Below the pieces are notes generated by a model that saw only the letters and a list, made by a program, of their open reading frames with translations, was not told where the DNA came from and searched no databases. Source: Candidatus Mycoplasma haematobovis (GTDB lineage Bacteria; Bacillota_I; Bacilli_A; Mycoplasmatales; Mycoplasmoidaceae). Taken from it: DNA of 42,853 bases. Location: contig NZ_LWUJ01000014.1 of assembly GCF_001645765.1 (NCBI RefSeq), positions 1 to 42,853 of the forward strand, in the 5' to 3' direction. The position numbers and the translations under genes are program-made. This document shows, in pieces, positions 1,659-42,677 of the stretch. Position 1 is the stretch's first letter. Each line of letters begins with the position of its first letter.

Positions 1659-2312
1659 CTAATCAGATTTAGCTTCAGTACATCATTGTTTAACCGCTAA
1701 ATAAGTTGGATCTTTAGTATTTTTTACCTCTGTTTGTTTTTTGCTGTCACATTTTGTTTTGTAATCATTAGGTGCATTTAGGCTGTTACTTTCTTTTATT
1801 GTCGGTCAATCATCAAGACCTAATTCATTGTTATTATTTATGTTAGCGATGTAATTTTTTCAAGCTTTGTTTCATTTTGCATCTCCTTGATTTGCATTTA
1901 TTAGTACGATATCTTTTTCTTCTCCTATTAAAGATGAAATGGAAAAAGACTTAGTACATAAATCTTTAACTTGTTGATAAGTATCAGATTTATTATCTGT
2001 TGTTCTTTCAGATGCTTTACTATAGCAGGTATCTTTAAAGTTTTGTGGAATATCGCTTTCGCTAGTTGTTTTTCCAGTATAGTTATCTAATCTTCATATG
2101 TTATTTCCTTTTGCAACATATTCTTTTCATCTTTTCAATCACTCTGTATCAGAATCACTAGAACTTAGCAATTTTAAGTCTTCTTTCTTAATAAGTTCTG
2201 AAATACTTTCTTTTGTAAGTCGATCATAGGCTACATAACTACCAGTAGAAATAGCGGCAGCTCCTGTTAATCCGATAGCTAATTTTGCTGCTATGCTTGG
2301 ACTAAGATTCAT
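1659..2312 (-). CDS. Family A two-module C-x22-C membrane-anchored protein (217 aa)
   Basis: ATG 2312 to TAG 1659, intact when TGA is Trp. The hydrophobic N-terminal helix spans about residues 8-29. Module 1 has WLKRWKEY (58-65), NFKDTC and cysteines 96 and 119; module 2 has WNKAWKNY (147-154), YKTKC and cysteines 188 and 211. Both pairs are separated by exactly 22 residues, and the second ends QWCTEAK. There are no other cysteines. The start is 8 bp downstream of the stop of the A gene at 2321, and the OFF gene 1240-1652 follows 6 bp later, suggesting one transcript. Probable surface protein; no enzymatic motif seen. Confidence 0.9.
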
Positions 2313-2320
2313 TTAAAGAA

Positions 2321-2992
2321 TTATGCCGGCCTAGAAACTGGAGTTTTAGCTTCAGTACATCATTGTTTAACTACTGAATATGCTTTATCTTTATTATTTT
2401 TTATTTCTTCTGCTTGTTTTGCTTCACATCGCGTACCATAGTCATTAGGAACAGTTTCTGCTTTGATGTCGCCAGTTAAAGCAAGACCTAAAGGATTTTC
2501 TGTTTTGGCTTCTGCAAAATATTTACTTCAAACAGCCTTTCATTTTGTGTTATCTGAAGGAGTTGTTTTTGCGGATATTAGTTGGATACTTTCATCTTTT
2601 GCTATTAATTCGGATACGGTAAAGCCTTTAGTACAGAATTCTGCAATTTCATCGTAGATATCTTTTTGACTAGTGATATTAATTCTTTTGGCAGATCTAT
2701 AGATACATGCATCTTTAAAGTCCGCAGGAGCATCATCAGATTTGCTAGTGTTTGCTTGATAACTTGATAACGCTCATTTATTATTGCCTTTTTTTACATA
2801 TTCTTGTCATCTTTTTCCTCATTGGACTTTTTCTCCTTCTTTTGTAAGTAAAGTTAAATCATCCTCTTTAAGTAATTCAGTAATCTTAGTTCCTAAGAGA
2901 TATTCATTTGTTAAGTAGCCTCCAGTAGCTATAGTAGCTGCACCAGCAACGCCCGCAACCACTTTTGTTCCTATACTTAAATTAATTGCCAT
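2321..2992 (-). CDS. Family A two-module C-x22-C membrane-anchored protein (223 aa)
   Basis: ATG 2992 to TAA 2321. N-terminal helix about residues 7-27 (Ala/Gly/Val-rich), then LLKEDDLTLLT, WGKRWQEY (58-65), DFKDAC with Cys 96 and EFCTK with Cys 120 (spacing 23 here). The second module has WKAVWSKYF, YGTRC and QWCTEAK, spaced 22. The last residues (TPVSRPA) extend beyond the usual end. First gene of a minus-strand run with 1659-2312. It lies back to back with the family C relic at 3037, the same divergent arrangement seen for B and C genes elsewhere, but here with an A gene. Probable surface protein. Confidence 0.9.
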
Positions 2993-3036
2993 TTAGATTA
3001 AATAATAGTTTTGTTTTTTAAAAGAATGAAACTTAT

Positions 3037-3603
3037 ATGAGTTCATTAATACCAAAAATAATTGGCGGTAGCACTAAGCACTTTAGGAGCTGATGCTTAT
3101 TTATTTTGGAATTAAAGAATTATTAAAGCCTACAACATTTAAAGGTAAGCTAGTCAGTAAGGGATTTAAACCTATTAGATCAGATGATATTGCTCATCGA
3201 GATTTAGAGTTTGAATCTGATCAAGAAGAATAATGGTACTAAATTAAAGAAAGAGTGTGAAAAGTGATTAAATTCAGATTCTGAGAAAGATATAGAGAAT
3301 GTTAAGAAATGATGTGGAATAAGGTTAATTAGTAATGAGATAGCAAGAAGAAAGAAAATTCTTTTTACTAAAGTTGAAGGTGTTGGTTTAGATTGGAATA
3401 ATACTTACAGTCAAAGAATGCGTTTAAATTCAGATACCTCTCACTTGAGACTAGGTGTTGATAAATTAACAGACGACGAAAAGTGATTGAAAGTTGTTCA
3501 AGGATGATGCAAAAAAGTGGAGGGTTCAGATTATTTAGCTTCCACGAAAAATATTGCTAAATTAACTGAAGATTGATGTACTAAAGAGGGAGTCAATCAG
3601 TAG
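3037..3603 (+). pseudogene. Family C pseudogene with several frameshifts
   Basis: The joined frames read as a family C protein: MSSLIPKIIGGS, LSTLGADAY, FGIKELLKP, WCGIRLIS, a WN..YSQR segment, GWCKKVEGSDY and DWCTKEGVNQ. Compared with the intact copy at 5038, 8 bp are missing between two AGCACT repeats about ten codons in. A 4-bp duplication (TTAT twice) follows about 30 bp later. A third frameshift lies in GATCAAGAAGAATAATGG at about 3222-3236. Three changes and no long open frame from the start make this a decayed gene, not a simple switch. It ends at TAG 3601-3603. Confidence 0.8.
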
Positions 3604-3695
3604 TAAATTATTATTAAGTTGTTTTTGGTTATTGTTTATTTCTTAAATGGTTTGTAGTTTATTGCTACAAGAAAAAAAATTTTAATTAGTTAATA

Positions 3696-3943: not shown

Positions 3944-4579
3944 TTATTTAGCGCAACCACTCTTTACAGCCAAGTAAAGTTTTTCTTTTTTATTCTTTAC
4001 TTCTTTTTCTAGGGCAGCCTTACATTTTGTTTTGTAATCAGAGGGAACTTCATTTTCTTTTGTACTTGCTGTGTCTCAACTACCAATCTCTAATAAATTA
4101 TTTGTTTTGTAATCTAAACGATATCTTTTTCATGCATTAGTTCAATCTGTTTCATTATTCCCTGTTTCTTGTAGTACTATTACTTTTCCCTCTAATAATT
4201 TTGAAATTTTTGTAGATTTAGTACACCATTTTTCTATGTCTAGATAAATACCCTTTTCATTACCTTTAGAAGCTAAAGAATAGTTATTTAAACAATGGTC
4301 TTTAAAATTCTGAGGAGCTTTATCTAAATTTGACTTGGATGTTAAATAGCTTGGTAATTTTCATTTATCATTTCCGTCATTAACATATTCCTTTCATCTT
4401 TTGGCTCATTCTGTGTCGTCATCACTGGAAGTAAGAAGAGTTAAATCATTCTTATTAATAAGGTCAGAGATTCTTTCTTTTGTTATGTTGTCATAAATAA
4501 AGTAGCTACCAGTAGCTAATGTACTTCCCCCAATTAAACCAATAACTACTTTAGCTCCTAAACTTGAATTAATTGTCAT
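3944..4579 (-). CDS. Family A two-module C-x22-C membrane-anchored protein (211 aa)
   Basis: ATG 4579 to TAA 3944. N-terminal helix about residues 7-28 (KVVIGLIGGSTLATGSYF). Module 1: WAKRWKEY (58-65), NFKDHC with Cys 96 and KWCTK with Cys 119. Module 2: WTNAWKRY, YKTKC with Cys 186, and Cys 209 in an unusual SGCAK end instead of the usual WCTK. Both pairs are spaced 22. The start overlaps the end of the family B gene at 4569 by 11 bp, so B and A are probably translated from one message starting near 5006. Probable surface protein. Confidence 0.9.
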
Positions 4580-5006
4580 CTGTCTCTTCTTTTGTACAGT
4601 ATTTTTCTACCTTTTTAAATTCATCTTGCCATATTCCCGAAACTTCTTTGTTTGCTCTACTAATGCATTCATCTTTAAATTCATCTGGGGCTTCATTGGG
4701 CTTCTTCTTTTTCTCAATGTAATTTGATAAGTTTCAGTTATTTTTTGATTCATCTACTGTCGCTTGCACTTGAGCACCATCTCCACTTGGTTGTGGTTTG
4801 GGAGTATTATCTTTTACGTATTCTGCCCAATTCTTATTTCATGCATCAACATCTTCTGTTTTGGACAGCATTATTCGTTTCTTTACTTTAAGAAACTCAG
4901 TAATTTTTCTTGGATTATCTTTAAGAAATATATAACCTCCGGTTATTATTCCTCCTACAGTAGTTAATCCAATACCACTCAAAACTAAGTTAGTAGATAA
5001 TGACAT
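4569..5006 (-). CDS. Family B one-module C-x22-C protein with Pro-containing linker (145 aa)
   Basis: ATG 5006 to TAA 4569. An upstream in-frame extension to 5057 is rejected because related copies begin at the equivalent Met before SLITN-type sequence. Helix about residues 7-28, then KDNPRKITEFLKVKKR, WNKNWAEY (56-63), a polar linker with PKPQPSG, WNLSNY, APDEFKDEC (Cys 114) and KYCTKEE (Cys 137). One cysteine pair, spaced 22. It is divergent from family C gene 5038 across 31 bp, and overlaps the downstream A gene by 11 bp. Half the size of family A: one module instead of two. Confidence 0.88.
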
Positions 5007-5020
5007 ATTCTTACTTCTTT

Positions 5021-5027
5021 TATAAGT
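5021..5027 (+). promoter_or_regulatory. TATAAGT box before a family C gene (putative -10)
   Basis: TATAAGT begins 17 bp before ATG 5038. The same heptamer stands 14-15 bp before the other three family C starts (11658, 13657, 15432), in intergenic DNA that is otherwise diverged, so it is probably a -10 element giving a very short leader. No consistent -35 was seen. Confidence 0.5.
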
Positions 5028-5037
5028 AATAGCCAAT

Positions 5038-5649
5038 ATGAACCCATTAATACCCAAAGCAATTGGTAGTACTGTAGTACTAAGCGCTTTGGGAACAGGT
5101 ACTTATTTTGGAGTTAAGGAGTGAACAAGAGAAGAAACACTTAGGGAGAAATTGACTAAAGCAAACTTTAGGTTTATTAAGATGGGAGAAAAAGCGCAGT
5201 GGGATTTGGAATTTAAATCAGATGAGACTACTATTAAGCAAGAATTGGGAGCACATGTTACAGGCGGAGATAAACTTGAGCAGGAGTGCCAAAAAATGTT
5301 GAATTCTTCTTCAGATGTAAATTTAGTTAAAGCTAAGAAATGATGCGGAATAAGATCAATTAGTAATCAGTTGTCAAGAAATAAGAAAACGTTTTTAGTT
5401 GCTGATAATTCAAGAGATGTTGAGGCTAAATGAACTGCCACTTATGGTAAGAGAAGAACGGATGTAGCAGATATGAAAAAAGTAGGATTAACTGAGTCTT
5501 GGCCAGATAATGAAAATGCAGGTTTGGCAAAGGTTAAAGAATGATGCGGTAAGCAAGTAAATGTGGATTATTCAGTTACTAATGTTGAGACTTACGAAGT
5601 TACTGAGGCTTGATGTACTGAACAAGGAGCACAAGCAACATTTAAGTAA
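5038..5649 (+). CDS. Family C two-module membrane-anchored protein (203 aa)
   Basis: ATG 5038 to TAA 5649. N-terminal helix in IGSTVVLSALGTGTYF (about 9-24), then KEWTREETLREKL, FRFIKMGEKAQWDLEF and cysteines 84, 103, 170 and 193. Signature blocks are KKWCGIRSISNQLSRN, KWTATYGKRRTDV and EAWCTEQGA. The second pair is spaced 22, the first 18. It is the intact reference for the relic at 3037. It sits divergently against the family B gene at 5006, behind a TATAAGT box. Probable surface protein, no known catalytic motif. Confidence 0.9.
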
Positions 5650-6464: not shown

Positions 6465-7106
6465 TTATTTATTGGTTGTGCATCAAGATTTAACTGTTAA
6501 ATAAGTTGGATCCTTTTTATTTCTCACTTCTTTAACTTTTTCTTCATCACATCTGGTTTTGTAATTGCTTGGAACTGTCGTTCTTACAGAACTCTCTAAA
6601 TTTCCAAGTTTAAGTGGGTCAGAAGATTTAACTTCGTCAAAATATTTACCTCAAGCCTCTTTTCATTTTTGGTGTTGAGAATCTCCTTCAGCTATCAATT
6701 GAATTTTTTCTTCCTTTCCTATTAATTCAGATACGGCAAAGCCTTTAGTACAGAATTCTGCTACTTCCTTGTAAATATCTGTTTGATTATCATTCACCTT
6801 TTTTGTGGAATTGTAAGTGCATGCTTCTTTAAAATTTTCTGGCGCTGAGCCTGTATTTTTAGAGCTAGTATCATAGTTACTTAAATTTCATTTATTATCG
6901 CCTTTATCAATATATTCTTTTCATCTTTTTGTCCATTGTCCAGCATCACCTCCTTTAGCCAATAAAACTAATTCATCTTTTTCAAGTAATTCAGTAATCT
7001 TAGTTCCCGATAAATATTCATTAGCTACATAACCACCGACACCTACAGTAGTAGCACTTCCAATTCCCAAAGCAATTTTTGCTCCTAAATTAAATTTAAG
7101 TGCCAC
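6465..7106 (-). CDS. Family A two-module C-x22-C membrane-anchored protein (213 aa)
   Basis: GTG 7106 to TAA 6465. The GTG shares its first base with the TAG stop of the family B gene at 7106, and it is the only start that gives the family N-terminus (ALKFNLGAKIALGIG). Helix about 8-27. Module 1: WTKRWKEY (58-65), cysteines 96 and 119. Module 2: WKEAWGKYF, YKTRC with Cys 186 and SWCTTNK with Cys 209. Both pairs are spaced 22. It is the last gene of a minus-strand run beginning at 11596. Probable surface protein. Confidence 0.88.
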
Positions 7107-7504
7107 TATTTAGAACAATAATTTTCTACTTCCTTGTATGCTTCATCTTTGTCACTAATTACTCTTTTTGTTGCACGAATTCCACATTCTTTTTTGAAGC
7201 TATTTGGAGCAGTATTTCTTGTATTCTTTTGTGTAGATCAATCCGATAATCCTCAAATATCTGTTTCTTTTGGAGTTTTGGCAGACTCTCCAGCGCTATT
7301 AGTGTCTATATATTTTCCTCAATTTGTATTCCAAGCGCTAGCATCACCAGATTGATCAGTTAGTAATGTCTTATTATTTTTTTTCAGTAATTCAGTAATA
7401 GATTGTGTTTTGTCTTTAAATACTTCATATCCTCCGTAAGCCACACCTCCCGCAACAGCTAACCCACCAACTCCTATTGATATATTAGTTAATAAACTTG
7501 GCAT
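7106..7504 (-). CDS. Family B one-module C-x22-C protein (132 aa)
   Basis: ATG 7504 to TAG 7106. Helix about residues 6-28 (ISIGVGGLAVAGGVAYGG), then a TELLKKNNKTLLTD segment, WNTNWGKY (58-65), a short polar linker, WGLSDW, APNSFKKEC (Cys 107) and NYCSK (Cys 130), spaced 22. The linker is short and lacks the proline tracts of other B proteins. Its stop overlaps the GTG of the downstream A gene by one base, suggesting translational coupling. The broken B copy 7510-7813 lies just upstream. Confidence 0.88.
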
Positions 7505-7853: not shown

Positions 7854-8372
7854 CTATGTATCTTCTCCATCCTCTGATTGAACCGCTTTAGTACAGTACT
7901 TTTCAATATTTTGATACTCACTATCTCAAGTGCCAGATACATTTCTGGCTTTAAATTCTTCACATTTATCTTTAAAGCTACTCAAAATAATATTATCCTT
8001 TACTTCTTGCGGATTTCAACCATCTAATCCTCAAATATCTTTTTTGTTTATAGTTTTCACAGTTCTTCTTGTCGTCCTTGGGGTTTGCCCAGCTTTAGTA
8101 CTTGGTGGAGTAGCTGGAGGAGGAGGGACTTGAGAAGCAGGCTCTTCAGTTACTTTAGTAGTACTATTGTCATCCACATACTTTTTCCAGTTTGCATTTC
8201 AACTATCATTATCTGCATTCTTATCTAAAAATGTTTTCTTTTGTTTTTGCAGTAACTCAGTAACGGGTCTCGGATTATCTTTGAATACAAAATAACCTCC
8301 ATAAGCTAATCCACCAGCAGAAGCAATTCCTACTCCTGTTATTGTTAAATGAGTTGTTGTTGGTAATGCCAT
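7854..8372 (-). CDS. Family B one-module protein with long proline-rich linker (172 aa)
   Basis: ATG 8372 to TAG 7854. Helix about 9-30 (TITGVGIASAGGLAYGGYF), KDNPRPVTELLQKQKK, WNANWKKY (58-65), then a Pro/Thr-rich linker of about 45 residues (QVPPPPATPPS), WGLDGW, SSFKDKC (Cys 137) and KYCTKAVQ (Cys 160), spaced 22. Its first 40 residues and their DNA are nearly identical to the B gene at 10522, while the rest differs. The ATG overlaps the stop of the upstream A gene by one base (TAATG). Confidence 0.9.
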
Positions 8373-9004
8373 TATTGAGCCTTAGTACATCAATTTTTAA
8401 CTGATATATAGTTTGTCTCTCTTGTGTTTCTTACTTCCATACCTTTAACTATTTTGCACCTTTCTTTGTAATCACTAGGTAGTTGTTTTGTATTTCTTTT
8501 TACAGAAGGTCAATTACCAATAGTTAAAGGATTTTTGCCTTCATTATCTTTAACATACTTTTCTCAAGCAGAATTTCATAGATTTACATCGTCTCCTTCT
8601 TGCAAAATTGTGATTCCTTTTTCTTTACTACTTAATAAATCAGTAACTTTGAAAGATTTAGTACAGTATTTTTCAAATTCTGCTGCAAATGTTTCTTGTC
8701 CTTCAATAGCTAAGCCAGTGCTATTTAAGCATTTATTTTTAAAATTATCGGGAGCTTTGTTTTCATTGCTTTTGTTTTGTTCATAATCTGTTAATTTTCA
8801 AGGATTATTGGCTTTGATATATTCTTTTCATCTTTTTGCCCATTCTTCTTCACTATCTTTTGAACTTAATAGAGTTAGGTCTCTTTTGCTAATACGATGA
8901 GAAATTCTTTCCGTGTTGTAGTATCCTCTAATGAAATAACTACTAGTAGATACAGCTGTTAATCCTGCTATACCTGCTCCTATTTTGATTACAGTTCCAG
9001 ACAT
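8372..9004 (-). CDS. Family A two-module C-x22-C membrane-anchored protein (210 aa)
   Basis: ATG 9004 to TAA 8372. Belongs to a subgroup with the 9649 and 11145 starts, sharing SYFIRGYYNT(E/D)RI at residues 22-34 after the N-terminal helix (about 4-22). Module 1: WAKRWKEY (55-62), NFKNKC with Cys 92 and KYCTK with Cys 114 (spacing 21). Module 2: WNSAWEKY, YKERC with Cys 183 and NWCTKAQ with Cys 206 (spacing 22). Stop and next start overlap as TAATG with B gene 8372. Probable surface protein. Confidence 0.9.
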
Positions 9005-9016
9005 TGAAGTAATTTA

Positions 9017-9649
9017 TTAGTTGATTTGGGTACATCAATTTTTGACTGATATGAAATGTTGATCTCTTTTGGTTCTTACTTCTCGGCCTTGAGTATTTAT
9101 GCATTTACTACTGTAATCGCTAGGTAAATTATTTTTGTTCTTGGTAATAGATAGATTTCATTTATCAATTTCAAGAGGGTTACTATTTTTGTTGTCGTTT
9201 AAGTACTTGCCTCAAGCAGCTTTTCATAAATCATTGCTATCCCCTTGCTTTAATAAAGTAACTTTTTCTTCCTTTAGTAAATCAGTAATTTTGAAAGACT
9301 TAGTACAATAATCCTTTACTTGTGAAAATAATGATTCATTTCCTTCGATAGCTAAATAAGCACTATCTGAACACTTATTTTTGAAGCTCTTTGGAACAAC
9401 ATTACTATTTGCTTTAGCTTGAGCATAATCAGCTAATTGTCATACATTTTTGTCTCCATTTAAATATTCTTTTCATCTTTTCAATCATTCTTTGTCATCA
9501 TCTCAAGAAGTAAGTAAAGTCATGCCACCGTTAGTGATACGGTGTGTTATTCGTTCTGTATTGTAGTAACCTCTAATAAAGTAACTACTTGCGGATACTG
9601 CAGTTAGGACTGCAACACCAGCTCCAACTTTAATAGTAGTACCAAGCAT
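9017..9649 (-). CDS. Family A two-module C-x22-C membrane-anchored protein (210 aa)
   Basis: ATG 9649 to TAA 9017. Closest to the neighbour at 9004: the same SYFIRGYYNTERI block after the helix, WLKRWKEY (55-62), cysteines 93 and 115 (spacing 21) and 183 and 206 (spacing 22), ending NWCTQIN. The ATG overlaps the stop of the B gene 9649-10005 by one base. Tandem with 8372-9004, probably by local duplication followed by divergence. No enzyme motif. Confidence 0.9.
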
Positions 9650-10005
9650 TATTGTGTCTTTGTTTTAGTACATCAATCTACAAAGTCTAAATAGTCTTGG
9701 TCTTCTTTGTTTTTGACTCTAGTATTTAGACGTTTGGTACATTCTGTTTTTATGTTTTTATTTATTGTCGCTTTCTTTATTTCGCCATCAATATTTCATT
9801 TGTTTTCGGTTCCTGAAGTACCTACATATTTATTTCACGCATCAGTTCAATTATCTCCTGTAGCTAGTATTTCTTTCTTATTATCTTCCTTTAGTAAATC
9901 AGAAATCAAAACATCTCTAGCGCCAAAATAAATAGCACTTGCTGTTCCGCCAGCAACTACTGTACCTCCGGCTCCAAATGCTAATAGTTTTGTTGCTAAA
10001 GACAT
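9649..10005 (-). CDS. Family B one-module C-x22-C protein, shortest copy (118 aa)
   Basis: ATG 10005 to TAA 9649. Helix about 5-27 (TKLLAFGAGGTVVAGGTASA), then DVLISDLLKEDNKKEILA, WTDAWNKY (53-60), a very short linker, IKTEC (Cys 89) and VDWCTKTK (Cys 112), spaced 22. With no proline linker this is close to the minimal module. The WCTK end resembles family A more than the usual YCTK of family B. TAATG overlap with the downstream A gene. The decayed copy at 7510-7813 resembles this N-terminus. Confidence 0.88.
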
Positions 10006-10036: not shown

Positions 10037-10522
10037 TTATGAATCTTCAGCAGGAGCTACTTTAGTACAGTATTTTTCAATATTTTGATATTCAGTAGTT
10101 CAAGTACCAGATAGTTTTTCGCTTTCTCAACCCAAACATTTATTTTTGAAACTATCTGGAACTTTATCTTTTTTAGATTTCTGATCTTTTCAATCAGTTA
10201 ATTTTCAAATATCTATTTCTTCGATAATTGTACTGGATTGTGCTTTTGGAGCTGCCGGAGTTCTTGGTGCAGTAGGCGGTTCAGCAGGAGCTGGATTTGT
10301 TACTGTCTTAGTATGTGCTTGAATATATTGTTGTCAACTAGTATTTCAAGCACTTTCATCTTCTTTAATGTTTCTTAAGAAAACTCTATTTTTGCTCTTC
10401 AGTAACTCAGTAACTGGTCTTGGATTATCTTTGAATACAAAATAACCTCCATAAGCTAATCCACCAGCAGAAGCAATGCCTACTCCTGTTATTGTTAAAT
10501 GAGTTGTTGTTGGCACTGCCAT
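10037..10522 (-). CDS. Family B one-module protein with Pro/Ala-rich linker (161 aa)
   Basis: ATG 10522 to TAA 10037. The first 41 residues match the B protein at 8372 except at residue 3. Helix about 9-30, KDNPRPVTELL, WNTSWQQY (59-66), a linker rich in Pro, Ala and Thr (NPAPAEPPTAPRTPAAP), WKLTDW, DSFKNKC (Cys 129) and KYCTKVAP (Cys 152), spaced 22. It begins 3 bp after the stop of the A gene at 10525. Same operon-like run. Confidence 0.9.
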
Positions 10523-10524: not shown

Positions 10525-11145
10525 CTAGACTTTAGTACACCAACTTTTAACTATTGAATATTTTTCGTCTCTCTTGGTTCTTATTTCGCTATTTGCGTTC
10601 TTAATGCAGTTTTCTTTGTAATTATCAGGTAAATTATTATTTGTAAAATGCTTAATATCTAATGGGTCTTTGTTATTTTTTTTCTTATTTTCAAAGTATT
10701 TATCTCATGCTGCTTTTCAAAGTTTTGGGTCATCCTCTCTCTTAAGTAAAGTAATTCCTTTTTCTTGTCCTAATAAATCAGTAATTTTGAAAGACTTAGT
10801 ACAATATCTTTCTATTTGACTTAATAAACCTCTATTACCCTCAATAGCTGTGCCGGTACTGTAATAACATTTATCTTTAAAGCTCTTTGGAACTTGATCT
10901 TTATTGCCTTTTGTTTGATCAAAATCAGTTAATTTTCATATATTATTCGAATTTTCGACATAATCTTTTCATCTTTTCGCTCACTCCGCCTCTGGATCAG
11001 AATAATTAAGTAAAGTCATTCCAGAGTTATTAATTCTGTGAATTATTCTGTCAGTGTTGTAGTAACCTCTAATGAAGTAACTACCTGTAGTTACAGAACT
11101 GATACCAACAATACCTGCACCAACTTTAATTAAAGTATTAGACAT
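10525..11145 (-). CDS. Family A two-module C-x22-C membrane-anchored protein (206 aa)
   Basis: ATG 11145 to TAG 10525. Third member of the SYFIRGYYNT subgroup. Module 1: WAKRWKDY (55-62), SFKDKC with Cys 93 and RYCTK with Cys 115 (spacing 21). Module 2: WKAAWDKYF, YKENC with Cys 180 and SWCTKV with Cys 203 (spacing 22). The start overlaps the end of the upstream B gene (11138) by 8 bp, the same B-then-A order as at 4569/4579 and 14919/14929. Probable surface protein. Confidence 0.9.
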
Positions 11146-11596
11146 CGTTTAAATCATCTTTAGTACAGTAATCTAAGAAATTCTTAAATTCTTCTTTTCA
11201 AATACCAGCAACTTTTTCATTTTCTTTTGATTTGCATTTTTCTTTAAATACAGCAGGAACTTCGGTAGGTTTTCCTTTTATTGTGTCTCAATCCTTCAAA
11301 TCCCAAACATTCTTAATAGGCTCCGGAGCAGGTTCGGGATCAGCAGGAGGTTCAACTACCTTAGGAGGGGTTTTTGGAGGATTGTACTTATCTAAATATT
11401 TTTTTCAATTAGTCTTTCAAGCCTCTTCATCGCCCGTTTGCGAAAGTGCTACTTTCTTCTTAACACTTAAAAATTGAGATATGGGTCTCGGATTATCCTT
11501 AAGTAATTCATAACTACCATAAACTACACCACCAACAGTTGCTAATCCAACACTACCTAAAGATATGTTAGTGATTAGTGATGAAGGAATTGCCAT
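11138..11596 (-). CDS. Family B one-module protein with Pro/Glu-rich linker (152 aa)
   Basis: ATG 11596 to TAA 11138. N-terminus SSLITNISLGSVGLATVGG is shared with the B genes at 13604 and 15389. Helix about 8-29, ELLKDNPRPISQFL, WKTNWKKY (60-67), a linker with PPKTPPKVVEPPADPEPAPE, WDLKDW, FKEKC (Cys 121) and DYCTKDD (Cys 144), spaced 22. It is the first gene of the minus run extending to 6465, and is divergent from the disrupted C gene at 11658. Confidence 0.9.
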
Positions 11597-31973: not shown

Positions 31974-32614
31974 TAATTCTTAGATAAACAAATTACTGAA
32001 GCATTTTTGAACTCTTTATCTTCCGTTCCTTTGTAAGGTTTTTTATATGCTTGAGTACATCAATCTTTAATAGCTTTTTTTGCTTCTTCGTTTTCTTTAT
32101 TCTTTGCCTCCTTTAACTTATCATCCAATTGACTTTCATCACTAATTGTCTTTAAAGCTTCGTGTGCTTTTTGTCATTTTTCACTATTATCTTGTTCTGT
32201 TTCACTAATAGAGTGCACTATTTTTTCTTTAATTGAAAAAGTACAATAACTTTGTATATTTTTGAACTCTTTATCTGATTCTCCTTTACTTGAATTATTA
32301 ATGTTATCCCTACATCAATCTCTTAATTCTGTTCAAATCGCTACATCGTTTTTGGCCTTTATTGTACTTAACCCCTCTATTAGCGTGCCTTCTCCAGCGC
32401 TTTTTAAAGATGTAAGTCTAGAAGTTCATTTTTCTTGATCTTCGTTATTCTTAGTGCTTAATAAGGTTCCTCTTAACTCTTTTGCATAAGAAGGGGCTTC
32501 TGTTTTTTCAGGGCTTTTTAGAATAGATTGCATACTATTGTAAATTCCATAACTAGCTCCACTGATTCCTGCAACCGCTCCAATTCCTAAACCGGCTTTA
32601 GCAAGGATATGCAT
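31973..32614 (-). CDS. Family J two-module C-x22-C membrane-anchored protein (213 aa)
   Basis: ATG 32614 to TAA 31973. An upstream TTG extension (MWKNRL) is rejected because it only re-reads the CGKTD end of the previous gene, and the ATG forms the usual TAATG junction. Anchor about 4-24, SILKSPEKTEAPSYAKEL, WTSRLTSLKSAG, DWCRDNINNSSKGESD to SYCTFSIKEKI, WQKAHEALK, an acidic/Lys helix, DWCTQAYKKPYKGTED to VICLSKN. Both pairs are spaced 22. The last bases overlap the K start by one. Confidence 0.9.
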
Positions 32615-33269
32615 TAGTCTGTTTTTCCACAAGATGCTTTAGCATCTCTGAAGGTCAAATTATCTTCACCTTCAAAAATTAATCCTTCTGTATCTGTACA
32701 TCACTTTTTAAGCGTTAAACCGTCGTTGCTATTAATAGCTACGATGGCTATTAATCCTTGTGATAAAGGTATTCTTCCAGTTGTCTTTAATTTTCCAAAT
32801 CTATCTTTTCAATTTGCATCATCACCCGCTCATGCTTCACTTTTTATTTGATCTTTAATTGTTCTCGCGCAATAAGTCTGAAAATCCCTAAATATTTCTG
32901 ATGTTCTATCAGTAAAGTCAGCCCCATATATTTCATTACATTCTTTCTTTAATTCTTCAAAACCACTATTTTCTTGTTGCTTTTCTTTATCGTATGCCGC
33001 TTTAAATTTAGATTGAGCCGGAATAGAATTTAAGTCTCTTAATTTCTTTAATTTTGAATTAACTAAATCTCTTTCGCTGTCAAAATTAATAAGAGCCAGT
33101 TTAAATGAATCCCTTATTGTCTTTGTGTTTTGTGTTGATGGCGAAGAGTCATCCTCTTTTGTTGTAAGAACTTTACTTTCAGACGTTACTCTGTGATAAA
33201 TTCCATAACCAACTCCACTGGCACTACTATAGCACCAGTTCCTGCTCCTACTTTAGCTATTAAATTCAT
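32614..33269 (-). pseudogene. J/K chimera with a one-base deletion in the anchor
   Basis: ATG 33269 reads MNLIAKVGAGTGAIV, a J anchor, and then leaves the frame. Adding one base near GTAGTGCC (about 33225) restores SGVGYGIYHRVTSESKV, then a linker TTKEDDSSP and the K block STQNTKTIRDSFK, followed by a normal K body: ECNEIYGADFTDRTSE to TYCARTIKDQI, WKDRFGKLK, KWCTDTEGLIFEGEDN to SCGKTD, about 218 residues, both pairs spaced 22. A second, independent J-to-K fusion, with a different breakpoint from 30134. OFF as sequenced. Confidence 0.8.
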
Positions 33270-33901
33270 TATTTAGTGCAAAACTCATTTGCATTTTTGT
33301 AAGTATCGTCTTCCGGTCCTTTAAATACCGAATTTTCTATGCCTGTACATCATGCCTTTAATTTACCACCATCGGTACTTTCTTCACTGGCTATTGTTGA
33401 TAATTCTGCCACTAAAGTTATTCCTGTTTTGGGTTGCTTTAATGCATCATGTTTAGTTTTTCATTGAAAACCTGTATCGCCTACGGCTCATTTAGTAGCA
33501 GTTATTTGATCTTTAATATTTTTTGAACAATAATCTTTGAAATCTCCAAAAACATTTGAGCTTTCATCAGAAAATTCACTATTATAGATTATTCGGCAAC
33601 CATCTTTAAGTTCTGCTAATCCATCTGTTTCTCCACCGCCCTTTGTTTTTGCTACTTGTAATTTGTCGTTATTTGGATTTACGCTAGCGCCTTTAAGTTT
33701 TTTTAGTTTTTCCTTTAATAAAGTATCTCCTGCACCTGTTAAATCTATTAAAGCATGTTGAAACTTATTCCTTACAAATACTTTATTAATTTCTATTTTT
33801 GTTTCTTCCTTTGTGTTTTGTGTTAATAATCAGTAGCTACCACCAGTCGCTACAGCCGCTGTACCAGTTACACCAGCAACTATTGGTATTAACTTAGACA
33901 T
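33269..33901 (-). CDS. Family K two-module C-x22-C membrane-anchored protein (210 aa)
   Basis: ATG 33901 to TAA 33269. Anchor about 5-24 (IPIVAGVTGTAAVATGGSYW), LLTQNT followed by an insert (KEETKIEINKVFVRNKF) unlike other K copies, LLKEKLKKLKGA, DGCRIIYNSEFSDESSN to DYCSKNIKDQI, WKTKHDALKQ, AWCTGIENSVFKGPED to EFCTK. Both pairs are spaced 22. First gene of the ten-gene minus J/K run and divergent from the L gene at 33990 (88 bp between). Confidence 0.92.
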
Positions 33902-33989: not shown

Positions 33990-35042
33990 ATGGCGAGTAC
34001 TAATTTAGCTAAGACTGCTTATGGTTTAGCAGGAGCAAGTGTATTATTAGGTGCTGGTTATGTTGCTAAGCCATGATTAATAGGCGATAGGATTGTTGAT
34101 TTACTTAAAGTACATAATCCTGAAAGACAATTATTAACCAAGCTTTCTGCTGCTTATAGTGATAGATGAAAGAAGGCCTGATATGACTATAGGAAAGGTA
34201 ATGAAAGTAATGTTGTAGATAAGTGAGAGATTGGAGATTGGCAGAAAGAAATAAATATTAGAAATGATGTTCCTGCGCCTACTTCTTTCATAGATGCTTG
34301 TGAAACAAATTCACAAGTAAGAGTATCAGGTAATTCAGATCCACTATATCAAGAAGTATTAAAGTGATGTACTGGTAGTTCCAAAATAAGTATCCGTGAT
34401 CGAATAAGGGATTCAGGTAAGAGAATTTTAAATAATTATGATTCTAAGAAGAATGAGAATTTTGGGTGGAAACCTTTATGGAAGAAATATCTTGAAGCTA
34501 ATAAGAATAGCAATACAGATGCTTTAGGAGTTTCTGGATGAATTAAGAATCCAACTCCAGAAAATTCTCTGGAAAATAATACAGGAGTAATGGATGATTT
34601 TATTAAGAAATGTACTGAGCTGTCTAGAGTAGAGGTTGAAGGTACAGGAGATCCAAACTATCAAAAAGCAATTAGTTATTGTGCTGATGATATTCATGCA
34701 GAAGATTTAGTTAAGGAAGTATATCCAGGAAGGAAAATGATTAGCTTAAGTAAGCTTAAAGAAAGAGGAACAGATGGTTCTGTTGATCCGATTGCTAAAG
34801 AGATATGGCAAAGCTATATTGCTAAGAACAGAGATAGAGCACCTGGAGAAGATGAGTGGAAAGTTGAATCATGACATTTAAAAAAAGATCAACCAGAAAT
34901 AATTCCAGATAATTTTTGAGATAATTGTACCGAGAAAAGAAGAATTGTTATTAAGAGTGTTGAAGATGTGGCATTTGATCAAGTCAAGAGATATTGTACT
35001 ATTGATAAGAATAGATCACATGGATATGCTGAAGATCTTTAA
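33990..35042 (+). CDS. Family L three-module C-x22-C membrane-anchored protein (350 aa)
   Basis: ATG 33990 to TAA 35042. Anchor about 9-25, PWLIGDRIVDLLKVHNPERQ, then three modules with Cys pairs CETNSQVRVSG..KWC, CTELSRVEVEG..SYC and CTEKRRIVIKS..RYC, all spaced 22. Between them lie W motifs (WKKAWYDYR, WKPLWKKYL, IWQSYIAKN). Closely related to the L gene at 23817; module 2 (KKCTELSRVEVEGTGDP, YPGRK) is the part recognisable in the relic at 16750-17339. Followed 13 bp later by a G gene. Confidence 0.93.
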
Positions 35043-35055: not shown

Positions 35056-35670
35056 ATGGCTACAGCTTTAGTTAAAGGGGTCGTAGCAGTTGGTACATTA
35101 GCTACCGCTTCAGGAGTAGGGACTGCAATATATTTCAATACAGGCACTACTATAGGAGATAAATTAGCAGAAAAGAAATTGACATTAATAAGCGATATCA
35201 ATGACTACAAATATCATCTTTTTGAACACAAAGATAGTAAAGAATTAAAGAAGGCACTTAATAAACAAACTATAGATCATACAGATAACATAAGCGATTT
35301 AAAGCGATGATGCAATGAAAGTGTTAAGGGATGGGCTTCAAGCGATAAAGATGAAAGTATTTTTAAGAAAGTCAAAGAGTGATGCGTTGTACCTACAATA
35401 AGAACATTAGGAGATAAGCTTGGAAGTAATTTACATGGACCAAACGAATGACAAGGTAAATATACAAGTTTTTCCGCACAAAATGGGGGCAGTAATGATT
35501 TTATGAATGCGTTAAAGGATGAATTTAAGGGTTTTGACTTTACACAAAATGCTAGCCAGGGAGGTGAAAAATTAAAGGCTTGATGTGAGGCAGTCATGAA
35601 GTTGAACACTTATGATGTTACAACACATAAATCAGAAGCAAATGCAAGAACTTGATGCTTGAAGGGTTAA
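35056..35670 (+). CDS. Family G two-module membrane-anchored protein with four Trp-Cys (204 aa)
   Basis: ATG 35056 to TAA 35670. Anchor about 6-27, TGTTIGDKLAEKKLTLISD, ELKKALNKQ, RWCNES (Cys 86) to EWCVVPTIRTLGDKL (Cys 110), then WQGKY, GGEKLKAWC (Cys 177) to TWCLKG (Cys 201). All four cysteines are preceded by Trp, and both spacings are 23, not 22. The intact reference for the stopped copy at 20699. It converges on the J gene ending at 35675. Probable surface protein. Confidence 0.92.
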
Positions 35671-35674: not shown

Positions 35675-36310
35675 TTAAGATTTAACGCAAATTTTTGACG
35701 CATTCTTAAATTCTTGGTCTTTTTCTCCTTTGTAAGGATTTGCAAAAGCTTTATTACATCAAGTCTTAATACTTGTATTAGCCGTTGCGTCTGTTTGAGA
35801 TTTAGCTGTTTGTAATTCTGAATCTAGCTCTTCGTTTGGAACATTCTTTAATGCTGTATGACCTACAGCCCATTCATTGTCACTATTATTGTTTTCTTCA
35901 GTAATTATGTTCTTTAGTTTTTCTTTAATTGAAAAAGTACAGTAACGTTGTATATTTTGAAATTCATTTCCTTCTTGTTTTGTATTTCCAATAATATCTT
36001 TACATCACTTTTGTAAGTCTTTTCAAGTAACAGAAGGATCCTGCTTAGCTTTTACTTGTTTAAGACTATCTACTAATGTATTTGGTTCGGCAGAGGTTAA
36101 TGTACCCAGCCTTGCCGTTCATTCTGTTTGATTTTCGTTCTCGTTAGTGCTTAATAAAGTGCCGTTTAATGCCGTTGCATAAGAAATAGCTTCTATTTTT
36201 TCTGAAGATACTTCTGGTTTAGAATTAGCACTACTATAAATTCCGTATCCTAGACCACTAACTCCAGCAATAGTTCCTATTCCTAAACCAGCTTTAACTA
36301 AAGTGCTCAT
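35675..36310 (-). CDS. Family J two-module Cys-pair membrane-anchored protein (211 aa)
   Basis: ATG 36310 to TAA 35675; the MWKNRL extension upstream is rejected as for 32614. Anchor about 4-24 (LVKAGLGIGTIAGVSGLGYG), SSANSKPEVSSEKIEAISYA, WTARLGTLTSAE, KWCKDIIGNTKQEGNE to RYCTFSIKEKL (20 between, two fewer than usual), WAVGHTALKN, TWCNKAFANPYKGEKD to KICVKS (22). TAATG with the upstream K gene at 36310. Shares its 5' region with 28855-29505. Confidence 0.9.
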
Positions 36311-36909
36311 TAATCTGTTTTTCCACAAAAACTTTTAACATCTTTAAATTCTTTATTTTCATCACCTTCAAATACTGCATCTGCTTTTTCATCACACCAT
36401 CTTTTCAAACTGTCTCCATTATTGCTTTCTTTTTTTGAAACAGCTATTAAAGAAGGGGAGATTGGTTTAGTATTGTCTTGATTTAATTTAGCGAATCTAT
36501 TATTTCATTGGGCACCAGTCGTTGCCCATTCCCCTTCACCTATCTTATCTTTATTTGTTTTTGCACAATAGTTTTGGAAATCTTTAAATAATTCAGATTC
36601 TTTCTTTTCAAAAACGCTATCGTATATTTCTTTACATCCTTCTTTAAATTCATTTAATCCACTATTAGAACTTACCTTTTCTTTAGTTTGTGCTGATTTA
36701 AGTTTTAAATTGGTTGGTCTGGTACTCGCATCCTTTAACTTTGTCAATTTTTTTGTAATTAAATCGTTCTCTCTATCAAGATCAATAATTGCATCTTTAA
36801 ATTTGTTCCTTACGATTGTTGTGTTTTGTGTTGATAATAAATAACCACCAACTGCACTAACAGTTAATGTACCAGTTATTCCCGCTACTATTGGAATAAA
36901 TTTAGACAT
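36310..36909 (-). CDS. Family K two-module C-x22-C membrane-anchored protein (199 aa)
   Basis: ATG 36909 to TAA 36310. Anchor about 5-24 (IPIVAGITGTLTVSAVGG), YLLSTQNTTIVRNKFKDAII, LITKKLTKLKDAS, EGCKEIYDSVFEKKESE to NYCAKTNKDKI, WNNRFAKLNQ, RWCDEKADAVFEGDEN to SFCGKTD. Both pairs are spaced 22. First of a K-J pair with a plausible promoter at 36928-36956. Probable surface protein. Confidence 0.92.
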
Positions 36910-37766: not shown

Positions 37767-38894
37767 GTGATATCTTTAATTAAATTTTTAAAAATTGTAT
37801 TGCCTGTTGCCACAGTAGCAACGGCAACTGTAGCTACTGTTTCTTTAGTATCCTTTAAGAAAATAGACTTAGATAAGAATAAAGACAATGAAGATAGAGT
37901 ATTGGATGATCTTGAACTGAAAGCAAAAGACTTCAAAGAGAAGAAGATGCTTTATTCAAAAAATGGAAAGAATGATTCAGTAACTTTAGAAGATGATTCT
38001 TTAATAGAAGAGATTCTTAAGAAGTTTCAAAATAACGAGGATTTAGTAGAACTGGAAGGTAAAGTTCCAAATATTGAAGAGCTTAAGAAATTCTTATCAG
38101 AAAACAAGGATGCATTAGCTAATGCACCTTCTTTATCTGACCAAGAAAAAAGTAATAAAGATTTAACGTTAAATAAACCTTCTGCGGTTGATCAGGAAAC
38201 AAACAATGGAGATACTGGTCTTCCAAATCAATTACTTTCTCCACAGGCCCCTCAATCTGAGCATAAGGATGTCAATGAATTAGGAATACAGTCTGAACAG
38301 GGTGCTCAAGATGACCTAGGTATTAGTAGACAAGACTTAGATCTTGGATTAGATAAGAAAGAAGAAAGTGGCGACGCATTTGAACAAAAAGAGAAGAAAG
38401 ATCTTGAATCGAAAGAACTAACTAATATGCAAGGCGATTCTCAGCTAACACAAGAGGAGCAGGATAAAGATGAAGAAACAACGAAAGAAGTTGATAAAGA
38501 CAAAATTGATGACGGAGGACTACAACAACCATCATTACAAGAGCCAAAAGATGCAATTCTAGAAAAGGATTCAGGCAAGGAAGAAGGTTCAAAAACAGTA
38601 CCTGAAGAATTGGGACCAAAATCTGGAGAAGTTCAAGAACAAAAAGAAGGCAGAGATATTGCTATTCCTAATGATTCACAAACACAAGATTCAGCATCAT
38701 TAAATCTAGGGGCTAAACAATTATCGGAAAGTCAAGGAGTTGACGGCTCAGTTAAAGGTGATGAAAAAAGTACTCATGAAGGCACTTCTTCCGAAGGAAA
38801 GAAACAATTATCTTTAGAAGAAATACAAGAATTAGAGAATCTAAAAAAGGAGATAGAAGATTTAACGAATAGTTTGAAAATACTATCTCTTTAA
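37767..38894 (+). CDS. Family D acidic, largely disordered surface-type protein (375 aa)
   Basis: GTG 37767 to TAA 38894, no internal TGA. Anchor about 8-30 (KIVLPVATVATATVATVSLV), SFKKID, LKAKDFKEKKMLYSKNGKND, LIEEILKKFQNNED, then about 230 acidic residues rich in Asp, Glu, Gln, Ser and Lys, and a C-terminal coiled segment (EEIQELENLKKEIEDLTNSL). In frame: TTGCCTG followed by TTGCCAC. Closest to the OFF copy at 24869. The C-terminal helix differs from the DIKxW type of 17401 and 18990. Followed by a broken E gene. Confidence 0.88.
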   Translation: MISLIKFLKIVLPVATVATATVATVSLVSFKKIDLDKNKDNEDRVLDDLELKAKDFKEKKMLYSKNGKNDSVTLEDDSLIEEILKKFQNNEDLVELEGKVPNIEELKKFLSENKDALANAPSLSDQEKSNKDLTLNKPSAVDQETNNGDTGLPNQLLSPQAPQSEHKDVNELGIQSEQGAQDDLGISRQDLDLGLDKKEESGDAFEQKEKKDLESKELTNMQGDSQLTQEEQDKDEETTKEVDKDKIDDGGLQQPSLQEPKDAILEKDSGKEEGSKTVPEELGPKSGEVQEQKEGRDIAIPNDSQTQDSASLNLGAKQLSESQGVDGSVKGDEKSTHEGTSSEGKKQLSLEEIQELENLKKEIEDLTNSLKILSL

Positions 38895-39310: not shown

Positions 39311-40330
39311 GTGTTAACTTTTGCTAAGTTATTAAAGGTTTTGTTGCCAGTTGCCAGTGTAACATCAGCAACACTGATTACTGCTTCTTTAGTATCTTTC
39401 AGAAAAAAGAATGATAATAACCAAAAACAAAATAGCGACATCTTATTAATTGATTTTGAAAATCCTGTAAAGGAGTTTGAAGAAAGGATTATTTTCTATT
39501 CAGAGGACGGGAAAGGACAAGGAGATGTATCTTTAGATAAAGAAAATGCAGAAAAATTAAAGAAACATATTAATAATAAACAAGATCTTAATAAGGGTTT
39601 AGAAAAAGGTGGTTTTGTCCCTGACGAAGTAGGAGAATCAGTTCCAAGAGAAAATAGTGATTCAAAAACAGAACATAATCAAACTTCAAAGACATCTAAA
39701 CCAAATTTAGATAATCCTAACCAAGAAGGTGAGGGAGCTTTAAGTCAAGAACAGGCACACGATAGTGATGATGAAAGTATTCCTAAAAGGGATGCAACAC
39801 CTTTACAAGATGAACCACAATCTCTATTAACTAAAGATGGATCTTTAGTAAATGAAAAAAGTGAAGAAACAAAGGAGTCTGATCCAAAACTTAAAAATAC
39901 TGGCGAGCTAAATAGTGATGACAGTGTTGATCAATCTGGGCAAAAGGTTGGCAAAGAGAATCAAGACGATAATTTAAGTTCTGAAGATGGTCAACAAGGA
40001 AGAGATGACGATTCTTCATCGGAACTTAAAGAATCAGAAGGACAAGTTCAATTATTAGAGTCAAATCCTCATAGCCCCACCTCTTCTCAAGCTGAAGAAA
40101 TTAGAGAAAGCAATAAGTCTGATGGAATCCCAGAATCAAATTCTGCTGCTTCATCCGATTTATCTCTAAATGAAAATGTAGGAAGAAAAGGTGGAATAGA
40201 TCCTAGTTCAAATTCAGGTGGAGTTGATAGTCTTAACGAAGAGGGGCTAAGAGAGCTACAGGAATTAGGAGAAAAACTGCAAGCATCTAGCGAACAATTA
40301 GAGAATATATTGGCCTCTTTGGATGCATAA
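39311..40330 (+). CDS. Family D acidic, largely disordered surface-type protein (339 aa)
   Basis: GTG 39311 to TAA 40330. Anchor about 8-30 (KVLLPVASVTSATLITASLV), SFRKKNDNNQKQ, VKEFEERIIFYSEDGKGQ, KENAEKLKKHINNK, then about 200 residues rich in Ser, Asp, Glu, Asn and Gln, and a C-terminal helix (RELQELGEKLQASSEQLENIL). In frame with TTGCCAG twice (39344-39357), so it too carries the slippage site. No Cys. Followed after 4 bp by an intact E gene. Confidence 0.88.
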   Translation: MLTFAKLLKVLLPVASVTSATLITASLVSFRKKNDNNQKQNSDILLIDFENPVKEFEERIIFYSEDGKGQGDVSLDKENAEKLKKHINNKQDLNKGLEKGGFVPDEVGESVPRENSDSKTEHNQTSKTSKPNLDNPNQEGEGALSQEQAHDSDDESIPKRDATPLQDEPQSLLTKDGSLVNEKSEETKESDPKLKNTGELNSDDSVDQSGQKVGKENQDDNLSSEDGQQGRDDDSSSELKESEGQVQLLESNPHSPTSSQAEEIRESNKSDGIPESNSAASSDLSLNENVGRKGGIDPSSNSGGVDSLNEEGLRELQELGEKLQASSEQLENILASLDA

Positions 40331-40334
40331 ATAG

Positions 40335-40778
40335 ATGTCTTTGAAACTATATTTAAGTAAACTAAAAGCGCTATTTCCAGTATTTGTTGTTGGTACTTCT
40401 GTAGCAATAACTATCAAATTACTTACCGAATCTAGTCCTACAACTTCAAATATATTTCAAGTATCTGCAACAGAAGATATCTTAGAGACTAGTTATGAAG
40501 ATAAATTAGAGGTTCCTACAGAGCCCGAACCAGAAAAGCCTCCTGTACCTGAAGAAACTCCGCCGCAAGAAGAACAATCAGAGCCTGAAGATGAAAAAGA
40601 GGACGAAAAAAGTGATGAAGACAAAGAATCTTCAAGTGAAGATAAAAAAGATGAATCAAAGGATCAATCTGAACAAAAACAAGAGAAGAAAGAACAACAA
40701 AAAACTACTGCTAAAAGGAGACTTATTCCGCACGGCATCGGTGGTTTGTTGGGAAAAATATTAAATCCACAAAATTAA
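40335..40778 (+). CDS. Family E acidic protein with basic tail (147 aa)
   Basis: ATG 40335 to TAA 40778. Anchor KLKALFPVFVVGTSVAITIKLL (about 9-30), TSNIFQVSATEDILETSYED, PTEPEPEKPPVPEETPPQEE, a Glu/Asp/Lys/Ser tract and a basic end TAKRRLIPHGIGGLLGKIL. No Cys. The anchor DNA is very similar to 25932. The stop is immediately followed by ATG of the G gene. The strongly acidic middle beside a basic, possibly amphipathic tail is the family's defining layout. Confidence 0.88.
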   Translation: MSLKLYLSKLKALFPVFVVGTSVAITIKLLTESSPTTSNIFQVSATEDILETSYEDKLEVPTEPEPEKPPVPEETPPQEEQSEPEDEKEDEKSDEDKESSSEDKKDESKDQSEQKQEKKEQQKTTAKRRLIPHGIGGLLGKILNPQN

Positions 40779-41387
40779 ATGTCACCAGTAGGCTTTAAAG
40801 TTAGTGTAGCTATAGGAGGTTTAGCAGCATTATCTGGAACTGCTACTTATTTCTTTACCAGAACTACTATTGAACAACAATTAGTATCAGAGGGATTGAC
40901 TCTGATAAGTGATAATAAAGATTACAAATTTGTGTTGTTTACGTACAAAGATGATGAAGAATTAAAGAAAGCATTATCTTCGAAGGAGACTTTAGACTTT
41001 AATACGAAAATTACAGATATTGAAAAATGATGTAAAGAGACTCTTAAACAATGAACTTCAAATGGAAAGTTATTAAAGAACGCAAAAACATGGTGCATTA
41101 TTCCAAAAGTAAAGATTCTTAAAGACAGAATAAAGGAAACATTGAATAAACCAAAAGTATGGCAAACTCATTTTACTAAGTTAGTTGGCACTTCCGAAAC
41201 AGAGAATAAGCTTTTGGCGGCCTTGAATGCCATTTCAACAAAACCAACCTTGACTAAAGATTCAAGTAATGGAGGAACAGTATTAGATGGATGATGCACT
41301 TCTGCTTTGGATCAAAAAATATATGAAATAGATAAGACATATAAAACAGAAGAAAATGTAACGAATTGATGTTTTGAAACTGCTTAA
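40779..41387 (+). CDS. Family G two-module membrane-anchored protein with four Trp-Cys (202 aa)
   Basis: ATG 40779, directly after the E stop, to TAA 41387. Anchor about 5-26, TRTTIEQQLVSEGLTLISD, ELKKALSSKE, KWCKETLKQW to TWCIIPKVKILKDRI, VWQTHF, GGTVLDGWC to NWCFETA. Four Trp-Cys dipeptides with spacings 20 and 24, the loosest in the window. Intact, unlike the copy at 20699. Followed by H and I, as at 20699/21335/21963. Confidence 0.9.
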
Positions 41388-41415
41388 AGATTACTAACTT
41401 GTTTTTGTGAGTAAT

Positions 41416-42087
41416 ATGTCTCCTGAATTTGTGCAAAAGCTAATTTCAATAACAGTAATCACTGGGGGACTGGGGGGTGGATATTATGCTTTGACTGGCG
41501 GCGGCACAGGCACCTTATCAAAGATGCATTTGGCAACTGGCAGACAATTAATTACTGATTGAACAGTTCTTGAAGCAAAATACAATTTACAGGATAATCA
41601 AGACATAATTGACGAAATACCAAAGAATTCTAAAAAATTTAATGAAAAAATAAAGAAATGATGCGAAAGTAAAGGAAGTACTTATTTTTTAGATGCGACA
41701 GATAAGACTTATCGTTCTTATGCTGTTTGATGTGTAACGGAAGTTAGTTTAGATAAGGAATTAAAGAGATTAGGTTTTAAATGAGACGATAATCATTGAG
41801 ATAAGAAGGCTAAGAAATACAATGAATCAAATCAGACATTTATGAAACAAGCTCCTAAAGGAGGAAAAATAACCCCTTTAAATGAAAGCGAAATTAGAGC
41901 TTGATGTGAATCTAATAAAGACGGAAGATACAAATATCCAGGTGATGAGGCGGAACATAGAATGAGAACATATTGTTATTGAACTGAAGAAGATTTAACA
42001 GCTACTAATAATCCAGAATCTGCACCAGAAACTCCTCCACAATTACCTCCATTAGATCCTCCAGCTCTTGACACTGATAAATCCTAA
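41416..42087 (+). CDS. Family H two-module C-x22-C membrane-anchored protein with Pro-rich tail (223 aa)
   Basis: ATG 41416 to TAA 42087. Anchor ITVITGGLGGGYYALTGGG (about 11-29), KMHLATGRQLITDW, KWCESKGSTYFLDATD to VWCVTEVS, GFKWDDNHWDKKAKKY, AWCESNKDGRYKYPGD to TYCYWTEED, both pairs spaced 22, then a Pro-rich tail (PESAPETPPQLPPLDPP). The tail is related in composition but not in sequence to that at 26409. Followed by an I gene 5 bp later. Confidence 0.9.
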
Positions 42088-42092
42088 GTAGT

Positions 42093-42677
42093 ATGACTAT
42101 ATTACCTCATCATATTGCTGGTATCTTTTTGTTAGGTGGTTTAACTGTAGGAGGTTACTTTACTGTTATTGCATTTACTCCTCCATCATTAGAAAGTAAG
42201 TTAAGTCAATTAGGACTTGAGGTGCTTAAAGGAAACTGGGGAGATAAGGAAGATGCATATCAAAAAGCAAGTGAAGATCTAATAACCTCTATTCCTAAAA
42301 ATGGCGCAGGCAAAATTGATGGATTTGTAAACAAATTAGAGGATTGATGTAATAAATATAAGACAAAGAATTTTTTGGGCGAAAATGATGCTAATTACAA
42401 ACGATTTTCACGTTGATGTACAGTTACTAAGAAAATTCAAGAAGTTTTAAAAAAGAGAGGAGGATTTGCTGATTTAGATGCACAAGAAAAAGCAAATATG
42501 TTTAGAGATTACAGTGCTGACACAAATACAGATAATAAGTTTGTTATTCCAGCAAAAGCACCACTTCAAGAATCAGATTTAAATAAATGATGTGATACTA
42601 AGAAAGAAGAAGTTTACAAATATGAATCAGATCAGGATTTACAAAGAGTAATTAAATGATGTTACAAAAAAGCATAA
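42093..42677 (+). CDS. Family I two-module C-x22-C membrane-anchored protein (194 aa)
   Basis: ATG 42093 to TAA 42677. Anchor about 7-26 (HIAGIFLLGGLTVGGYFTV), FTPPSLESKLSQLGLEVL, DWCNKYKTKNFLGEND to RWCTVTKKI, KWCDTKKEEVYKYESD to KWCYKKA, both pairs spaced 22. Unlike the copies at 21963 and 27079, its leader DNA has diverged, so it has not shared the recent sequence exchange. Followed by an E gene that runs off the window. Confidence 0.92.

Follow-up and report, generated by a model that had tools for sequence, protein, structure and literature searches.

The 42,853 nucleotides of contig NZ_LWUJ01000014.1 from Candidatus Mycoplasma haematobovis, analysed at full length and hereafter called the window, contain 48 open reading frames (ORF) that carry paired cysteines (Cys). 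These cysteines belong to a homologous module that recurs in one, two or three copies per protein. It is probable that this module is helical and closed by a disulfide, that it is displayed behind an N-terminal anchor, and that it forms the constant scaffold of variable surface proteins. The very large set of uncharacterised proteins in these blood parasites probably rests on one fold. A bolder proposition is narrowly favoured, namely that an undescribed fold, confined to one genus of haemotropic mycoplasmas, alone accounts for about 30 to 50% of their coding sequence, as a disulfide-locked helical module in one to three copies on which the variable surface repertoire is built.

The window is contig C14 of an 18-contig genome of 935,638 bases with 30.2% G+C, and it was translated with TGA as tryptophan (Trp). 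Its 48 proteins formed the set for the Cys analysis. The iterated profile used for the module counts was built from the window modules.

Homology of the module across families

An initial annotation had proposed a C-x22-C helical hairpin, closed by the Cys pair and displayed behind an N-terminal anchor, as the one ancestral unit of nine seemingly unrelated gene families, the rest of the sequence being hardly alike. BLASTP clustering at 30% identity and 70% coverage separates the window proteins into 11 clusters, roughly what had been taken for separate families, but single linkage at an expectation value (E) below 1e-6 joins 46 of 47 of them. The identity between families is very low, with a mean column identity of 21% in an alignment of 38 modules.

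The relationship persists when the cysteines are removed from consideration. A Cys-masked profile seeded only with window family A gathered 1364 proteins in eight rounds, every one within the full set. Among them are proteins of families B, G, H, I, J, K and L, though not the diverged one at 16065-16715, and the reversed-sequence control of this search gave no match. The family letters A to L are those of the present analysis; the letters of the initial annotation had no definition against which they could be matched. Profile-profile comparison, also with masked Cys, places the families in a connected network (A1-I1 96%, A2-G2 95%, K1-G1 98%, J1-I1 97%). Comparison at the sequence level therefore establishes the homology of the module across families, and the single ancestral module stands without its cysteines. 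On the other hand, the remainder of the sequence had been judged too severely, since the whole module of about 80 residues aligns even with masked Cys. The hairpin itself agrees with the antiparallel register described below, but the real unit is larger and comprises a Trp helix together with the hairpin.

Pairing and spacing of the cysteines

Beyond the leader, 178 of the 179 Cys of the window proteins sit in 89 pairs, and the sole unpaired residue belongs to a gene broken by a stop. The recount agrees with the earlier description of pairs mostly exactly 22 residues apart with exceptions of 18 to 24: the spacing is x22 in 70 pairs and x18, x20, x21, x23 and x24 in 2, 5, 6, 5 and 1, respectively. 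Shuffling each ectodomain 500 times yielded a mean of 1.8 and a maximum of 7 x22 pairs. In the whole genome, adjacent Cys are offset by 23 positions 308 times over a background of about 20, and this peak is gone in the ORF of the same genome that lack the module. The number of Cys beyond residue 30 is 2, 4 or 6 in 379 of 390 module proteins of this genome and in 861 of 875 of M. haemofelis.

The positions reported for a three-module protein (Cys 104/127, 206/229 and 306/329) were recovered in the first protein of this type. The motif C-x15-[FY]-x2-hydrophobic-x2-aromatic-C, given as the common form, fits 47 of the 89 window modules and is specific, as it occurs in 583 of 1518 proteins with the module and in 1 of 1478 without. 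W-x3-[WFL]-x2-[YL], said to precede the pair, is present in 42 of the 89. The uniform x22 spacing ascribed to family K is not found at 35056-35670 and 40779-41387, which are assigned to K here without equating the two sets of letters and have spacings of x20, x23 and x24.

Predicted fold and covariation

Separate AlphaFold models were calculated for two ectodomains, that of 6465-7106 from family A, with 46 aligned sequences, and that of 30736-31368 from family J, with 22. The mean predicted local distance difference test (pLDDT) values are 93.9 and 94.0, respectively, with a predicted template modelling score (pTM) of 0.85 for each. Structure prediction family by family had been proposed as a check, and in these two dissimilar families the order of the elements around every Cys pair is identical in all four modelled modules. 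Counted from the first cysteine (Cys1), a short helix near -60 is followed by the Trp helix near -42 to -29 and by a short element near -20 to -14. In the hairpin part, the Cys1 helix extends to about +4 and the Cys2 helix spans about +13 to +22, with the second cysteine (Cys2) at +23.

A pseudo-likelihood coupling model was calculated from 2762 modules, the Cys columns being excluded from the ranking. Between the two Cys helices, the couplings that rank highest (54-70, 54-66, 57-66 and 55-70) follow an antiparallel register centred on i+j = 123-125. The Cys columns, 51 and 74, add up to 125, so the register obtained from the other residues sets Cys1 opposite Cys2. A significance test for an antiparallel stripe on mean-field couplings was not significant (p=0.11), and the pseudo-likelihood register is taken as support for the antiparallel hairpin, not as proof. 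A shared fold with this hairpin register is predicted across the families.

Foldseek found no match to either model in the PDB at E<=0.001, an absence that is no proof of a new fold, and nothing significant among viral models. VIA-align gave no match with Z>=2 among 6 and 42 PDB chains ranked by Foldseek, and the module profile matched no PDB chain sequence. Pfam and NCBIfam scans of ten family members returned chance-level matches only, with nothing over the curated cut-off.

Copy number and taxonomic range

In the genome that contains the window, the profile detects 671 modules in 390 of 1002 ORF of at least 100 residues. The nearest relatives compared were M. haemofelis Langford 1 (1,147,259 bases) and M. 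haemocanis (919,992 bases, the size given for Illinois in PMC3496576). The former has 1724 modules in 875 of 1473 ORF, which amounts to 52% of the ORF residues, and the first 440 kb of the latter have 497 modules in 253 ORF. In the genome under study, the profile appears to have missed additional diverged members, of which the protein at C4:980-1339 is an example, and the module count is therefore probably a lower bound.

Of the 95 family genomes, 3 have the module, and these belong to a single genus; it was found neither in the 92 family genomes outside that genus nor in any further genome searched within the order. Seven genomes of the sister genus g3, the putative M. suis group, gave no module match even at E 10. 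This group, whose similar surface-type paralogues are published, may hold a remote version of the module.

Conservation, duplication and recombination

The two Cys occur together in 2855 of 2903 aligned modules. Another residue stands in place of Cys1 in 3 modules and of Cys2 in none; the other cases reflect alignments that are truncated. Pairwise comparison of recent paralogue modules from the same genome (1012 pairs) shows no replacement of the Cys, 2% for Trp13 and 3% for the aromatic residue at position 73; many of the other positions differ in 50-66%. Such a pattern is characteristic of a protein whose core is held constant and whose surface varies freely.

The history of the duplications appears to differ between families. 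Similarity scores in the H/I group are 152 for H1-I1 and 125 for H2-I2, against 51 for H1-H2. First modules match first and second match second; therefore, the doubling predates the split of these families. The two modules of family A closely resemble each other and the single module of B (scores of 126-128), which suggests a separate or homogenised doubling. The three-module L proteins group with A and B. The chimeric gene at 29505-30152 is a sign of recombination between neighbouring paralogues. Four copies in the window are broken, three by frame changes in the leader or N-terminal part and one by an in-frame stop.

Proposed anchor, disulfide and surface role

An uncharged N-terminal segment of at least 16 residues occurs in 360 of the 390 module proteins of the genome. 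Published predictions give the paralogues an N-terminal signal or transmembrane segment followed by a non-cytoplasmic tail of about 200 residues (PMC3146833), and from these predictions we infer that the modules lie outside the cell. We also infer an intramodule disulfide, because the strict Cys pairing coincides with the hairpin register. An antigenic role would fit the copy number, the chimerism, the positive selection reported in 41 of 63 paralogous families (PMC3958358) and limited mass-spectrometry and immunoblot data, in which some paralogues were detected and one was immunogenic (PMC3146833).

In the proposed mechanism, the genes would all encode the same homologous domain of about 80 residues, present once, twice or three times in tandem behind a short, uncharged, Gly/Ala-rich segment that serves as membrane anchor. 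Within a module, a short helix would come first, then a long one whose Trp is nearly invariant, and then a variable linker. Two antiparallel helices would complete the module, with their Cys opposite each other and most probably joined by a disulfide outside the cell. The buried Trp, the hydrophobic positions and the disulfide would keep the core constant, whereas the exposed helix faces and the linker would be free to vary. Repeated duplication and recombination of this scaffold would have generated a large set of surface proteins facing the host blood. Their purpose is most likely antigenic variety and possibly red-cell binding.

Three points weigh against this interpretation. The charge bias of the leader is ambiguous on topology, since the N-terminal flank is the more positive one in this genome and the reverse holds in M. 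haemofelis and M. haemocanis. DsbA and VKOR were not found in the genome, which has thioredoxin only, and the disulfide would therefore form spontaneously or through an unknown oxidase. Finally, selection by profile is biased towards modules with intact Cys; the masked search nevertheless added no protein outside the full set. The sequences themselves show the homology, the copy number, the restriction to one genus, the near-absolute Cys pairing, the contrast between core and surface variability and the recombinant copy.

The same proteins could form a structural coat or a red-cell adhesin scaffold, their diversity then reflecting many ligands or host receptors instead of immune evasion. Haemoplasmas live epi-erythrocytic, the family-specific sequence lies on a constant core, and several families stand side by side in conserved order (H-I and J1-J2 pairs), all of which would suit such a function. 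However, the copy number, with 875 of 1473 ORF in M. haemofelis, the broken and chimeric copies and the reported positive selection (PMC3958358) are more in keeping with an antigen repertoire, and the coat or adhesin explanation is considered unlikely. It is more doubtful still that the modules are cytoplasmic or reduced, with the Cys pair kept for core packing or a metal site. The ambiguous leader charge and the missing dedicated oxidase speak for this possibility, but the single pair of family B cannot form a four-Cys site alone, the Cys are never replaced in the 1012 recent paralogue pairs, unlike normal core positions, and the published predictions place the tails outside (PMC3146833). Independent origin of the families by convergence on the C-x22-C spacing, which could draw on their very low mutual identity, is scarcely credible and was rejected on the Cys-masked search, as this recruits nearly all other families from family A without reversed false matches, and families A and J share the predicted layout.

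The M. haemofelis pool, with 800 genes in one family, is the largest paralogous pool reported in a bacterium, and so far its members had only been listed as hypothetical proteins. Tracing this pool and the families around it to one small Cys-paired module, apparently with a new fold, would provide a single structural target. Its constant residues are candidates for broadly reactive diagnostics, and the variable residues are defined as well. Antigenic variation in haemoplasmas, a long-standing idea, would become directly testable.

Module genes and neighbouring genes of the window

The module genes are collected in Table 1. Between 22554 and 36909, the J1 and J2 genes mostly alternate on the minus strand and overlap by a few bases at start and stop, like a translationally coupled tandem array.

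Table 1. ORF with paired cysteines in the window (positions in nucleotides).
Position	Strand	Modules	Family	Remarks
1659-2312	-	two	A	modules 1950-2186, 1677-1919
2321-2992	-	two	A	
3211-3603	+		G	N-terminal part broken, frames change upstream
3944-4579	-	two	A	
4569-5057	-	one	B	insert between Trp helix and hairpin
5038-5649	+	two	G	first pair x18
6465-7106	-	two	A	ectodomain modelled
7106-7504	-	one	B	
7854-8372	-	one	B	profile match split by Pro-rich insert
8372-9004	-	two	A	
9017-9649	-	two	A	
9649-10005	-	one	B-like	
10037-10522	-	one	B	
10525-11145	-	two	A	
11138-11596	-	one	B	
11779-12294	+	two	G	frame broken upstream in leader
13134-13604	-	one	B	
13657-14286	+	two	G	
14276-14929	-	two	A	
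14919-15389	-	one	B	
15432-16052	+	two	G	
16065-16715	+	two		most diverged (module scores 10 and 23 bits)
20072-20692	+	two		singleton
20912-21322	+		K	in-frame stop within first module
21335-21958	+	two	H	
21963-22553	+	two	I	
22554-23183	-	two	J1	
23165-23761	-	two	J2	
23817-24848	+	three	L	modules 23946-24200, 24237-24506, 24549-24806
26409-27077	+	two	H	
27079-27654	+	two	I	
27655-28287	-	two	J1	
28269-28862	-	two	J2	
28855-29505	-	two	J1	
29505-30152	-		J1/J2	chimera: J1-type leader (<=98% identical to J1 genes), J2-type ectodomain (segments 90-97% identical to 23165-23761)
30134-30736	-	two	J2	
30736-31368	-	two	J1	ectodomain modelled
31368-31973	-	two	J2	
31973-32632	-	two	J1	
32614-33252	-		J2-type	frame broken in leader, without listed start in this frame
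33269-33901	-	two	J2	
33990-35042	+	three	L	modules 34122-34373, 34410-34685, 34743-35000
35056-35670	+	two	K	x23
35675-36328	-	two	J1	
36310-36909	-	two	J2	
40779-41387	+	two	K	x20, x24
41407-42087	+	two	H	
42093-42677	+	two	I	

The window also encodes nearly Cys-free, acidic, repeat-like anchored proteins (18990-20069, 24925-25932, 37767-38894 and 39311-40330), for which Pfam gave no match over the cut-off in the tested members. Several of them adjoin a second acidic protein of about 150 residues (18473-18934, 25932-26405 and 40335-40778).

Runs of 8-10 G or C bases number 37 in the genome (window 1608, C4:3357 and C1:72970 among them), where about 0.5 would be expected, and their lengths show a peak at 9. 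Many of them lie about 30 bases into the shared leader of a different family of small proteins, where the frame is open with G10 and G9 leads to a stop. Another group is located some 15 bases into genes of about 400 residues that adjoin module genes. These runs look like a slipped-strand on/off switch. Elsewhere in the genome, C1:157172-158515 and 13 related ORF form a 14-member cluster; the member tested has a match to Mycop_pep_DUF31 (PF01732), which is a family of mycoplasma peptidases.

Comparison with known systems

Twin-CX9C (CHCH) proteins and alpha-hairpinins are helix-loop-helix structures held by disulfides, with two Cys in each helix. The module resembles them in the inter-helix disulfide that it would possess, but it has one Cys per helix, an additional Trp helix and no Pfam or PDB match. 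Membership of the CHCH or twin-CXnC group was ruled out, as this requires two Cys per helix.

Msp2 and Msp3 of Anaplasma marginale, with which haemoplasma paralogues have been compared (PMC3146833), provide, as proposed here for the module proteins, a blood parasite with a surface repertoire recombined from many copies. The module proteins probably do not belong to that system, and Pfam found no shared domain. The window has one chimeric gene and four broken copies, and no single expression site fed by silent copies was identified. The paralogous families of the M. suis group are described as similar surface-type paralogues (PMC3146833) but differ in the lack of a module match in the seven g3 genomes.

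The closest known counterparts are the uncharacterised paralogues of M. haemofelis, with 800 members in family 1 and 99 in family 2, and those of M. haemocanis (PMC3196708, PMC3146833, PMC3496576). They are homologous to the module proteins, have about 200 residues and an N-terminal hydrophobic segment, and are arranged in islands. On the other hand, the literature sorts them by identity into dozens of families, and the word cysteine does not occur in the genome papers PMC3196708, PMC3496576 and PMC3958358. A search of open-licence papers for a Cys-paired module returned nothing relevant. The pool of paralogues was already known, and the single Cys-paired module, its architecture of one, two or three copies and its apparently unmatched fold seem to be new.

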